This document shows positions 1-10,821 of a stretch of 64,000 nt of DNA, piece by piece. This DNA comes from Calvatia gigantea (lineage: Eukaryota; Basidiomycota; Agaricomycetes; Agaricales; Lycoperdaceae): contig JACAAK010000012.1 of assembly GCA_025093985.1 (NCBI GenBank), positions 1 to 64,000 of the forward strand, given 5' to 3'. Numbering within the stretch: the first letter of the stretch is position 1; every line of letters starts with the position of its first letter. The notes below the pieces were generated by a model. The model was not told the DNA's origin. It did no database searches and saw only the letters and a program-made list of their open reading frames with translations. The translations under genes were made by a program, and so were the position numbers.

Positions 1-22
1 AACCCTAACCCCCTAACCCCCG
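1..22. repeat. Terminal telomeric repeat tract
   Basis: The window opens with degenerate CCCTAA units (aaccctaacc followed by ccctaacccc), the C-rich strand of a TTAGGG-type telomere. The tract is short, so it may be the trimmed end of a contig. The following sequence is joined directly to it. Two similar tracts recur further in (about 2553-2580 and 3121-3132). Confidence 0.8.
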
Positions 23-2300: not shown

Positions 2301-2302
2301 TA

Positions 2303-2552
2303 GGCAGGATGAAGGAATGAAGCCAGTAGTCAGTGTCGTTTGAGAGTTCGTACTGTGGCTTGACGAACGTGTTCTTGAGTGAACGCTTTTACCAGTAGTT
2401 ATACGCCGGGGAGGTGATGGCCCCGGTTGGGATAGCGAACGACCAACAACATCGCATTGGATCACCAACGTTTTCCTTGCAGGTGTGCCAAATGGAACAC
2501 TTTGCGGTAAGTACATCCGTGTACGCAATCTTGGACTACTACTAATACGTAG
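2303..2552. other. Inner remainder of outermost telomeric block
   Basis: This is the continuation of the block interrupted by the Tc1 element. It ends directly at the interstitial telomeric tract near 2553. No coding capacity is recognised, and it shares no visible 3' end with the hammerhead-bearing repeats further in. Confidence 0.4.
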
Positions 2553-2580
2553 GAACCCCCTAACCCCTAACCTCCCCTAA
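2553..2580. repeat. Interstitial telomeric tract
   Basis: Degenerate CCCTAA units (ccccctaacccctaacctcccctaac) sit between two unrelated subtelomeric blocks, in the same orientation as the terminal tract. Such a tract marks a former chromosome end to which further sequence was later added. Confidence 0.8.
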
Positions 2581-2838
2581 CAATGGTGAGTGGAACCGGC
2601 CTTGTCTCGTGATGCGCAGGCTGATAGATGGATTAAGGGACTGTCCGAGCTGGACTGTTGCGTAAATAACCTGCCACGGTATGTACCCCGCCCTCAGTTG
2701 TCAAGCTGATGACATCGTTAGGTACTTGGTACGTTCATTGTATTATTTCAAGAATGTTCGTATTTAAGTGCGTGGGCGCTTAATGGGCGCCCCGCATTTG
2801 GGCGCTACGCGGGCGCTTAAGTACAAGTTTTCCTTACT
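2581..2838. other. Unique 5' part of second telomeric block
   Basis: This lies between the interstitial telomeric tract and the first hammerhead repeat. It contains no ORF of note. A run of GGGCGC-type motifs and their complements (about 2775-2895) can form several short hairpins, as in a structured RNA leader. Confidence 0.35.
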
Positions 2839-3120
2839 TTTACATTTCCTGACGATAACTTAAGCGCCCACAAGCGCTAAGGTTTTGGGCGCTATATTAG
2901 CGCTCGTTGACATTTGTCAACTGTTCCATGGATCGAGTTAATTATACTCATCCCCAAGTATAGCGCGATCGTACGCGTTCTATTGGTTTGGTAGGTGCTG
3001 ATGGATAATCAGAGCGCCTGATGAGTCTGTCATAAGACGAAACAGGTGGTTGGGGTAGCTCCCCAACCTGTTGCGCTGTCTCCTCCATCGGACAACTCAA
3101 CGGTTTTTAGGATCTCCTCC
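2839..3120 (+). repeat. Subtelomeric direct repeat, copy 1 (pLTR-like)
   Basis: A roughly 280-bp unit is repeated at 3133-3413 with about 97 percent identity by eye and a 294-bp offset. Copy 1 ends in ctcctcc and abuts a telomeric tract. Both copies contain the hammerhead motif at the same position. Direct repeats with an internal hammerhead, attached to telomere repeats, resemble the pseudo-LTRs of Penelope-like elements. That assignment is inference, because no reverse transcriptase is seen in the window. Confidence 0.75.
3013..3077 (+). ncRNA. Type I hammerhead ribozyme, copy 1
   Basis: The conserved core is complete. Stem I is AGCGC (3013-3017) paired with GCGCT (3073-3077). The CUGAUGA box is 3018-3024. 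Stem II is GUCU/AGAC with a GUCAUA loop (3025-3038). The GAAA box is 3039-3042. Stem III is ACAGG/CCUGU plus UUGGGG/CCCCAA (3042-3071) with a UGG bulge and UAGCU loop. The predicted cleavage site follows U3072, in the order G-U-U. Open ends in stem I make it type I. Hammerheads of this type are known in Penelope-like retroelements, where they are thought to process the RNA. Confidence 0.85.
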
Positions 3121-3132
3121 AACCCTAACCCC
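3121..3132. repeat. Interstitial telomeric tract between hammerhead repeats
   Basis: The sequence aaccctaacccc lies exactly at the junction of the two 280-bp repeats, in the same orientation as the chromosome end. It suggests that copy 1 was added onto a telomere that had capped copy 2. Confidence 0.8.
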
Positions 3133-3413
3133 TTTACATTTCCTGACGATAACTTAAGCGCCCACAAGCGCTAAGGTTTTGGGCGCTATTTTAGCGCTTG
3201 TTGACATTTGTCAACTGTTCCATGGATCGAGTTAATTATACTCATCCCCAAGTATAGCGCGATCGTACGCGTTCTATTGGTTTGGTAGGTACTGATGGAT
3301 AATCAGAGCGCCTGATGAGTCTGTCATAAGACGAAACAGGTGGCTGGGGTAGCTCCCCAGCCTGTTGCGCTGTCTCCTCCATCGACAACTCAACGGTTTT
3401 TAGGATTTCCTCC
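3133..3413 (+). repeat. Subtelomeric direct repeat, copy 2 (pLTR-like)
   Basis: This is the second copy of the hammerhead-bearing unit. It starts at tttacatttcc directly after the telomeric tract, with no longer 5' extension, so it is more severely 5'-truncated than copy 1. Its 3' edge (tcctcc) runs into unrelated AT-rich sequence at about 3414. It differs from copy 1 by scattered substitutions and a one-base deletion. Confidence 0.75.
3307..3371 (+). ncRNA. Type I hammerhead ribozyme, copy 2
   Basis: The architecture is the same as in copy 1, shifted by 294 bp: CTGATGA at 3312-3318, GAAA at 3333-3336, and stem I closing at 3367-3371. In stem III the U-A pair of copy 1 (3050 with 3066) is replaced by C-G (ggctgggg/ccccagcc). 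This compensatory double change keeps the helix, while the core boxes are unchanged. Confidence 0.85.
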
Positions 3414-4013
3414 TCCCCTGCAATCCAATCACCATATATTATACCTCGTTAGAACCGCCTCAGAGAGCTCTTTCCAACGGTATTGAGACCGTAGAAATTC
3501 GCCTACTCTCTGCCATAATATTTTAGCATTTCTTTAATAACAAGGTGGCTCCACAGCACTCCAGGTAGTTATTGAAGCAACATCCCCAGTATCTCATCAG
3601 GGGATTCCTGTAAATGTGAGTAATCTACAAAAGGGACCGAGTAATTATCTGCAGCCGTTGTATTGTTATAGAATTATGTGTCTATTTTGGGGTAAATACT
3701 ATGAATACAGTAGAAATACAGAGCCTGAATGAAATATAATGTATTTGGGCTTGTTGGAATTAGCTCAATGAGTACTATTCAACGGAATTTAGACCGAAAT
3801 GATCGCTTTAGTATCCAGTGAGTTATACCAATAACACCATAAATGCGAGTTTTTGAAATAGTGCTGCAATGAATGAACATATTGGCCTGTATCTGGAGTC
3901 GCTGAAAAGCCACTGTCAATCCGAACAAAATAAAAAAAAAGTATGAGTAGATCTGCTCATTTTTGGTGGAGTTATTCCAGTATCATTCTATATTTAATGT
4001 TCTGAGGACTCAT
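3414..4013. other. AT-rich sequence without genes
   Basis: About 600 bp of AT-rich sequence with no ORF of note, no telomeric motif and no recognised element. It forms the boundary between the telomeric cap and the internal repeat island. Confidence 0.5.
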
Positions 4014-4520: not shown

Positions 4521-4565
4521 TTTGACCTCTATGACCCCTAATGTCCAACTCACCTAGATAACCCT

Positions 4566-5376
4566 ATGAAAGCATTGGATGCCCAGAAAGCCAAAAATCC
4601 TATACCAGAAACCCATCATAATACAACTCCTGGCCCTTCAACTCTATCTACCAATCTCTCTAGTTCAACTCCCTCTACTTCTACTTCTCTTCCAACCAAC
4701 CTGTCTGGTGTCCGTCGCTCTACAAGACTTAAGCCTTTTTCAACAAGCCTAGCAGATATGTATAATGAAAAGGCTGACCAAGGTATATATCTTATAATCT
4801 CAGAACATAGTTTAATATAACTAACAGTTTTTATTTATAATAATAGACTAACAAATGTTGGATGCTCATTCTAGTACCAAAAAGAGCTTTTCAAAGAGGA
4901 CAAACACTCCACTAGTCTTTTGGCCAGTTGAAGATGCTGAAGATCCAATCAAGAACCTAGAAACAGCATATAAAAAACTTGAGGATATGGACTCCAAGGA
5001 GTTTGGCAAGGAGTTTCTCAACTTGTACACTCTCAAGGAAACTTTTGGTCTTCTTGACACTGACAGATTAGTGGAAGCTTTTCACCAAGTGGCCAAATTG
5101 GACAGGCATACTATAAAAGCACTGGCCAATCCAGAAAATACAGACAAGATTAACAGAATGGTCAGGTTTATGCCTGACAAGGAAAGAGCATTTGGGCTTG
5201 GGTTTTCCAAAACCACTCAAGCCTCTGGGTCCACAAATAGGAAGAGAAAGGCTATTGAGAGAACAGGAAGTAGTCCTCAACAGAAGAAGACCAGAGAGAA
5301 GAGCAAAAGGAAGGTTATTGTCTCTGATAATGAAAATGATATTGATGATGGAACTGGGGAGGAGACACAGGAATGA
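4566..5376 (+). CDS. Hypothetical protein, two-part, lysine-rich C-terminus
   Basis: A first frame (4566-4820) encodes a Ser/Thr/Pro-rich stretch ending near RRSTRLKPF. A plausible intron follows (4783-4846, GT to AG with a CTAAC branch-like motif), then a frame from ATG 4855 to the TGA at 5374-5376 (173 residues). A TAA at 4849-4851, in frame with the second part and just after the acceptor, prevents simple joining, so either the second ORF starts at 4855 or the gene is broken. The second part is charged, with coiled-coil-like segments (NLETAYKKLEDMD) and a basic nuclear-signal-like C-terminus (NRKRK, KKTREKSKRK). I do not recognise the family. Its setting among repeats suggests a mobile-element passenger. 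Confidence 0.4.
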
Positions 5377-10677: not shown

Positions 10678-10821
10678 CTGCACCAACAAGTTGATGTGAC
10701 ACTCATCATATCAATATCATGTTAAATCTAAAGAGTGTAGTCTTCAATATGACATGATTTACAGTTTTTGCAATTGATATGATTTCAATATGACCTGTGC
10801 TACATTGACTTGTTGGTGCAG
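10678..10821. mobile_element. Small inverted-repeat (MITE-like) element
   Basis: CTGCACCAACAAGT (10678-10691) is exactly complementary to 10808-10821, and weaker pairing continues inward, for example ttgatgtgacac against gtgctacattg. The interior is AT-rich, with repeated tcaatatgac motifs in both orientations. At 144 bp with no ORF it resembles a miniature inverted-repeat element. I cannot identify a clean target duplication. Confidence 0.5.

Follow-up and report, generated by a model that had tools for sequence, protein, structure and literature searches.

Predicted type I hammerhead motifs in the pseudo-LTRs of a probable Penelope-like element at chromosome ends of Calvatia gigantea

Coprina elements are reportedly the telomere-associated Penelope-like elements (PLEs) of basidiomycetes, and the hammerheads of fungal PLEs are said to have been called stable monomers already. 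In bdelloid rotifers, endonuclease-deficient PLEs known as Terminons and Athena occupy telomeres. According to a review of giant transposons, Terminons leave 5'-truncated copies in head-to-tail arrays and carry a hammerhead directly before telomeric sequence in reverse complement, with which the G-rich overhang pairs (PMC6431247). Two reviews describe PLE hammerheads as mostly minimal motifs lacking helix III or loop contacts (PMC7761336, PMC6155905). PAc, a Poseidon-clade PLE of Anolis, has a GIY-YIG endonuclease and AT-rich targets; its reverse transcription starts internally, and cleavage is unneeded for insertion in vitro (PMC11167929).

The window analysed here, meaning the whole 64,000-nt stretch from Calvatia gigantea, starts at a chromosome end. 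The favoured reading, with a probability of roughly 0.8, is that it carries type I hammerheads in the pseudo-LTR of an endonuclease-deficient, chromosome-end PLE that inserts via uncut RNA. The core idea of the initial annotation, a hammerhead in the pseudo-LTR of a telomere-attached Coprina-type PLE, is well supported by the orientation of the copies, the adjoining reverse transcriptase (RT) frame and the C-rich end. Positions in the element are placed on one natural reference copy, C56:8849-13950, whose predicted cut lies between 5042 and 5043. The features of the window are as follows.

1-20, forward strand: terminal telomere repeats, C-rich strand (from sequence); the element piece starts at 21
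18-317, forward: C-terminal ~100 aa of the RT ORF, in a copy 5'-truncated at the telomere (98% identity to P0002 residues 663-762)
318-2555, forward: 3' untranslated region (UTR) of the element, broken by an insertion at ~694-2302 (collinearity with one natural copy)
694-2302, reverse: DNA transposon with a 357-aa ORF, foreign to the element, presumably Tc1/mariner-like on our own reading of the sequence (near-identical copies at three other contig ends)
2556-2580, forward: internal telomere-like tract CCCCCTAACCCCTAACCTCCCCTAA, directly before the pseudo-LTR (sequence; comparison of copies)
2578-3120, forward: pseudo-LTR copy 1 (~545 bp), a repeat used as leader and as element 3' end (comparison of copies)
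2586-2637, forward: GTGAGT...AAG segment of 52 nt, a putative intron retained here (exactly missing in three leader pseudo-LTRs)
3000-3089, forward: hammerhead motif copy 1, predicted cut between 3072 and 3073 (sequence, fold, alignment, descriptor)
3000-3005/3084-3089, 3013-3017/3073-3077 and 3018-3024: distal stem I, proximal stem I and core of copy 1
3025-3028/3035-3038, 3039-3041 and 3042-3071: stem II, GAA and stem III of copy 1
3106-3120, forward: C-rich 3' terminal region of copy 1, the likely start of reverse transcription (63 of 75 piece 3' ends lie in the matching 28 nt of the reference)
3121-3131, forward: telomeric tract AACCCTAACCC, 11 nt, separating the two copies (from sequence)
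3132-3413, forward: pseudo-LTR copy 2, 5'-truncated (aligns to reference copy 4807-5097)
3294-3383, forward: hammerhead motif copy 2, predicted cut between 3366 and 3367 (sequence, alignment, descriptor)

From 21 on, the window holds a 5'-truncated retrotransposon whose 3' end is pseudo-LTR copy 1, and copy 2 is a second, shorter 5' truncation of the same pseudo-LTR. One natural copy matches the pieces at 21-695 and 2301-3125 collinearly, at 98-99% identity. This layout changes the picture given by the initial annotation, in which two 280-bp repeats formed the unit and each abutted telomeric sequence. No break separates the repeat from the 3' end of an RT-bearing element, and position 2839 is no element boundary: copy 1 extends upstream of it, while copy 2 begins by truncation at ~3132. 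Telomeric sequence lies only between the copies, at 3121-3131, and the right end of copy 2 joins other DNA.

Several neighbouring features were also recorded. The transposon at 694-2302 has inverted ends CAGTAAGGGACAAAACCGTTCCAATG and sits in the element 3' UTR; it was probably active recently, since 99.6-99.9% identical copies are present close to the right end of C77 and the left ends of C1 and C12. The telomere-like tract (reference 4527-4548) also precedes the pseudo-LTR in most of the other listed long copies and, lying beside the likely RNA start, may be a fossil junction or part of a promoter. Directly after copy 2, ~86 bp (3415-3500) recur in other subtelomeres at 80-99% identity, apparently as another subtelomeric repeat. 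A ~140-bp hairpin at 10680-10820 resembles microRNA precursor models (best E 0.0066, 31 bits; gathering 110) and is perhaps an inverted-repeat transposon.

As an observation, the hammerhead pair reported in the initial annotation was largely right and could be partly confirmed. Every type I part named there is present in both copies: CUGAUGA (3018-3024 in copy 1, 3312-3318 in copy 2), stem II GUCU/AGAC, GAAA, a closed stem III and a 5-bp stem I. U3072 and U3366 were checked on the sequence as the residues 5' of the predicted cuts, and both copies fit the consensus CUGANGA ... GAA ... with an A-U pair closing stem III and a non-G at the cut. The short stem I is correct for the 5-bp proximal stem, but a second helix of 6 bp (3000-3005/3084-3089) follows past an internal loop, and stem I as a whole is not merely short. 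The pairs of all three helices, open at stem I, were verified on the sequence.

Chance was assessed on both strands with a descriptor comprising the core and minimum numbers of stem pairs (5/4/5 strict; 4/3/3 loose). The strict form matched twice, at the two motifs in the window, and 0 times in 600 dinucleotide-shuffled windows; the loose form found the same two in the window and 12 in 600 shuffled windows (2 in an earlier 60). Supporting this, the 92-nt folds have z-scores of -4.53 and -4.80, each better than all 200 shuffles. The minimum-energy fold from ViennaRNA (-39.7 kcal/mol) nevertheless differs from the hammerhead (about -33.8 kcal/mol): part of the core pairs with the base of stem III, and base-pair probabilities for proximal stem I and lower stem III are at most 0.08. 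Hammerhead cores are poorly modelled by nearest-neighbour energies, so the preference for another fold is a caution rather than a refutation.

Rfam gave no hammerhead above gathering in the window, a short stretch, the genome itself or stretches beside relatives, and none in the window at E values up to 5; the initial annotation had named a lack of significant model score as counting against the motif. On a 421-base stretch, the type III model RF00008 matched each copy partially (21 bits, E 0.054; gathering 48.5). The search of the genome, which gave no hammerhead, is uninformative because the control also matched in 0 of 14 genomes. Overall, both motifs are real as sequence and as fold, and cleavage is a prediction from them.

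Comparison of copies adds to this picture. A core search of the retrieved pieces gave 62 matches, of which 55 near-full ones were aligned and 7 partial ones left out. The alignment collapses to 30 distinct rows, in which 96.6% of cells pair. As the initial annotation had stated, one stem III pair changes between the copies, from U-A in the first to C-G in the second, but the weight placed on it as evidence of a maintained helix was too great: it is 1 of 26 pairs, and over the 30 rows it reads C-G in 23, U-A in 6 and, as a halfway state, C-A in one. Doubly changed pairs number 1 against a shuffle mean of 1.5, with 452 of 500 shuffles at least as high, whereas the cell count, the percentage and the covariation score were each reached by 1 of 500 shuffles. 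Sliding the alignment by -2 and +3 columns gave covariation scores of 0.066 and 0.045, compared with 0.040 in register. As these controls disagree, covariation is weak evidence. Stem changes without compensation, named beforehand as a sign against the motif, do occur in other copies, with broken pairs at 18-76 (9 of the 30 rows), 29-38 (6), 17-77 (3) and 7-86 (7), the last beside a one-base gap.

Conservation is the stronger evidence. Non-CpG diversity, taken over 46 full copies of the repeat, is 0.0144 for the 65-nt core and 0.060 outside the 92-nt motif, and 0 of 104 other 65-nt stretches are as low; CpG sites decay more in the core than outside the motif (0.101 vs 0.045; 6 and 26 sites). 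Judged by this diversity, no part of the repeat is better conserved than the predicted ribozyme motif. A search for diverged relatives that might show covariation yielded one on C5 and two on C3; the stretches downstream of them (L057-L061) gave no match to the hammerhead model. In L058 661-1500 (C3:2228061-2228900), the tract and, by eye, a decayed 5' edge of the hammerhead region ('actgatggtaagtcagagc...') can be seen before homology is lost.

The element recurs across the genome, although match counts are lower bounds and several matches may be pieces of one copy. For the repeat, at least 50 matches are spread over 18 contig ends, and each points the same way relative to the nearer end. The core pattern has at least 40, compared with 1 for a reversed control pattern; one on C77 was unrelated and was dropped, leaving 39. 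The RT protein has at least 54 matches in its own genome. All 50 repeat and all 39 core-pattern matches lie within 100 kb of a contig end with the 3' end facing inward, a rule obeyed by 47 of the 54 RT matches. The seven exceptions are six diverged pieces on C3 (48-65% identical) and one fragment at C3:3-83.

Longer copies adjoining an RT ORF, which the initial annotation had suggested searching for, were found. The five longest each carry one frame of 1,290-1,321 codons with an RT domain, including GDVVAFYPNI, HGLAMGVACSP and YIDD, which we take to be RT motifs A-C. For the 463-aa RT part, PADLOC gave 13 matches (best 1.8e-6) and NCBIfam 4 (best 2.9e-4), all to RT families; with P0001, the whole frame, as query, NCBIfam returned three RT families plus an unrelated match (glutamate-cysteine ligase, E 0.03). 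The best PDB match is a group II intron-like RT, weak (E 0.56) but with the motifs in order. Pfam matched nothing over its cut-offs, neither an RT nor an endonuclease, the GvpG match to P0001 (E 0.26) being below its own cut-off, and no endonuclease, including a C-terminal GIY-YIG, was matched in P0001 or P0002 (E up to 1) or in P0003 (E up to 10). The RT identity rests on PADLOC and NCBIfam, because Pfam was empty and PDB reached only E 0.56. From the observed anatomy and the motifs, we infer that the element belongs in the Penelope clade.

Ten RT matches are near-full. Three were left out, namely C34:4277244 (partly retrieved), C74 (two stops) and C5 (many). The seven open stretches of 758 codons have 65 synonymous and 28 non-synonymous variable codons, at most 3 of the 28 being foreign codons that start the C3 stretch, compared with a neutral expectation of 2.6 non-synonymous per synonymous change. 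By this measure, the RT frame is under purifying selection. One copy, C56:2816-8384, is about 5.6 kb long. Two copies on C56 have a hammerhead repeat both before and after the frame, which is the tandem pseudo-LTR arrangement. The 3' pseudo-LTR of the C77 copy and that of the C74 copy break off before reaching the hammerhead.

The ends of the element pieces bear directly on how they were inserted. On the reference, 63 of 75 piece 3' ends lie at 5075-5102, a span of 28 nt that is 33-60 nt past the hammerhead cut; the other 12 lie elsewhere, and the Tc1/mariner break in the window accounts for one of them. Among the 5' ends, 71 in number, positions are scattered. No end of either kind (0 of 71 and 0 of 75) falls within 5 nt of the cut, the nearest 5' ends being at 5033, 5028 (two) and 5024; this is no significant depletion, as about one would be expected by chance, estimated from local density. 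Some ends are not true ones, since 4-5 pseudo-LTRs run on into the ORF leader, where the reference copy begins, and some 5' ends are breaks caused by other repeats.

A small non-autonomous retrozyme of the animal type, in which the hammerhead would process circular RNA units of ~280 nt that then reinsert in tandem, would account for the unit size, the tandem dimer and the type I hammerhead, given that animal retrozymes measure ~170-400 nt (PMC7229834). Yet the repeat forms one continuous stretch with the 3' end of an RT-bearing element, the pieces mostly stop 33-60 nt past the cut and none at it, and copy 2, which begins by truncation, is separated from copy 1 by telomeric sequence. The units are not bounded by hammerhead cuts. 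This reading is very unlikely and largely refuted.

It is also quite unlikely that the insertion template is made by hammerhead cleavage of a multimeric transcript. The core as the most conserved part of the repeat and the two C56 copies with hammerheads on both sides of the frame would fit such processing, but pieces end at neither cut, three leaders keep about 400 nt upstream of the cut, and core-mutated copies occur at several different junctions.

The sequence after the 63 clustered 3' ends is CnTAAC in 17, another element piece in 16, the ORF leader region in 5 and other DNA in 25. A C-rich end joined to telomere repeats or older copies is what priming by a G-rich or eroded end would be expected to give, whereas the 25 of 63 that join DNA neither telomeric nor of the element count against a telomere-priming model. 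At L033 (C34 right end) and L040-L041 (C56 left end), 3' ends abut older, 5'-truncated copies directly and telomere repeat is scant or absent, as though the element had capped eroded ends. The same flank, GCACCCAACTAATGTAGTT, lies beside element pieces at L048 ~3838, L049 ~4722, L051 and the C77 right end, and is probably the end of another transposon that breaks them.

Further evidence comes from the 52-nt segment. In the leader pseudo-LTRs of C56, C77 and C74, which run gap-free into the ORF leader, the head reads AACAATG joined to GGACTG, exactly without the GTGAGT...AAG (GT-AG) segment. A fourth gap-free leader, C56:8378, is truncated after the intron position. Unspliced heads (24 listed, 22 of the full-length form) occur alone as well as at element 3' ends. 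This distribution points to an RNA that probably starts near the pseudo-LTR head and is spliced in its leader, although the three spliced leaders are not counted as independent because one splicing event could be ancestral. As an arguable counter-case, the C45 right end has a complete RT frame immediately preceded by an unspliced pseudo-LTR, the join lacking ~20 nt of the ORF leader; this would be either a leader left unspliced or, on our reading, a separate attachment.

These observations also bear on whether the stacks could have arisen by recombination between telomeric ends only, without reverse transcription. Subtelomeres do exchange sequence and the copies are tandem, but such exchange sits poorly with the precise absence of the segment from leaders, a narrow 3' end set against scattered 5' ends, the single orientation, the apparent purifying selection on the RT frame and the mostly differing 3' flanks of copies. 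Recombination as the sole source is extremely unlikely.

Copies with altered cores are informative in another way. Across 59 hammerhead copies (55 near-full and 4 partial, three shorter pieces being dropped), columns 15-79 are unchanged apart from the U-A/C-G swap in 34 and changed in 25; L043:4275, with a C-A mismatch, is counted among the 34, and 2 of the 25 are without their 5' part, so some changes are not mutations. Five copies on five contigs (L044:4956, L050:8689, L051, L055 and L056) share G38C in stem II and G41A, and three of them also have G22C (G5). G41 presumably corresponds to G12, required for catalysis in the standard hammerhead. The five copies have five different 3' flanks; their 5' ends are less telling, as two reach the telomere-like tract, one is repeat-broken and one was incompletely retrieved. 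At the C34 right end, two copies with two broken stem I pairs, and a third, partial copy with one of these changes, likewise have separate junctions.

The simplest reading is that RNA with a presumably dead core was inserted several times; alternatively, subtelomeric gene conversion inside the element, without transposition, could account for these copies. By contrast, all four hammerheads that immediately precede a gap-free ORF leader (L036:4293, L040:3192, L040:8736 and L046:3323) are intact. In a C56 copy, the predicted cut lies, by our count, 108 nt before the likely start codon. The pattern across copies suggests that new copies are made from uncut RNA. For the anole PLE, hammerhead mutants leave insertion in vitro unaffected (PMC11167929). 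The genome anatomy of this endonuclease-less telomere element points the same way.

The motif might instead be a ribozyme no longer, persisting as a conserved RNA structure with a hammerhead fold, for instance an RT-binding or translation element. A predicted minimum-energy fold other than the hammerhead, the failure of Rfam to detect the motif and the existence of core-mutated copies would all agree with this; however, a binding element would hardly need the exact core, and 34 of the 59 listed copies, including all four before a gap-free ORF leader, keep columns 15-79 unchanged, swap aside. This makes loss of ribozyme function unlikely.

From the observed anatomy, orientation and RT frame, we infer a mechanism for an element that inserts via uncut RNA. 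The RNA would start at the pseudo-LTR head, just past the telomere-like tract, lose the 52-nt intron from its leader, and continue through the hammerhead and the RT frame into another pseudo-LTR, which has a hammerhead of its own. A G-rich telomere 3' overhang or an eroded end would serve as primer on the C-rich stretch 33-60 nt past the second hammerhead, so that the chromosome would be extended and 5'-truncated copies left in head-to-tail stacks. The inserted RNA would be one that the hammerheads had left uncut, and cleavage, if any, would act at a different step, for instance in splitting up multimeric or read-through transcripts or in freeing an uncapped message.

A more tentative idea, possible but somewhat doubtful, is that the hammerhead is dispensable for insertion, with templates uncut and core-dead RNAs repeatedly inserted in trans, and is kept in the coding lineage as its cut would act on the message 108 nt before the start codon. 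The alternative fold would then be a switch keeping the template whole until the element protein acts, and the closed 11-bp stem III would define a self-sufficient subtype.

What is new here are the ends lying away from the cut, the 52-nt gap in leaders and the core-mutated copies at different junctions. The genome offers dozens of insertions with readable ends, in which intact and core-mutated ribozyme motifs stand side by side, and this allows what the hammerhead does in insertion to be told apart from what it does in expression. The copies have the look of a retrotransposon that landed on eroded chromosome ends, a matter relevant to how telomerase-like elements extend chromosomes. A search of open-licence literature returned no title on this element.

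The traits of a telomere-attached PLE are seen in the single orientation of 50 of 50 matches and in the CnTAAC that follows 17 of 63 3' ends. The element would resemble Coprina in its fungal host, endonuclease-less RT and telomere attachment; the telomere repeat, together with intron and genome size, suggests a basidiomycete-like fungus. With Terminons and Athena it shares the plan of an endonuclease-less RT element that is telomere-attached, 5'-truncated and arranged head-to-tail, and in Terminons too the hammerhead lies shortly before a C-rich stretch potentially able to pair with the G-rich overhang, (ACACCC)n or (TCACCC)n there and ATCACCTCCTCC here. It differs in length (about 5.6 kb, against up to 40 kb), in having one long frame where that review gives two, and in its closed, long stem III (PMC6431247).

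Like other PLE hammerheads, those described here are type I and lie in pseudo-LTRs, but the closed stem III of 11 pairs with a 3-base bulge contrasts with the mostly minimal motifs that reviews describe (PMC7761336, PMC6155905). As in PAc, the hammerhead lies at the junction of pseudo-LTR and ORF, reverse transcription would start internally and insertion would do without cleavage, although the cut is 26 bp inside the ORF in PAc and 108 nt before the likely start codon here (PMC11167929). The type I hammerhead and short tandem units recall animal non-LTR retrozymes, from which the units differ in being the ends of a coding element and in not being bounded at the cut (PMC7229834). By description, the element stands apart from Terminons in its closed stem III, in a stem I that extends past an internal loop, in the GUU triplet, in its one long frame and in the leader intron. 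A distinct subtype, as the initial annotation suggested, may be represented, although the hammerheads of fungal PLEs reportedly already counted as stable monomers. The plan of the element nonetheless matches that of the known endonuclease-deficient, telomere-attached PLEs (Terminon/Athena and Coprina), while the element itself is new.
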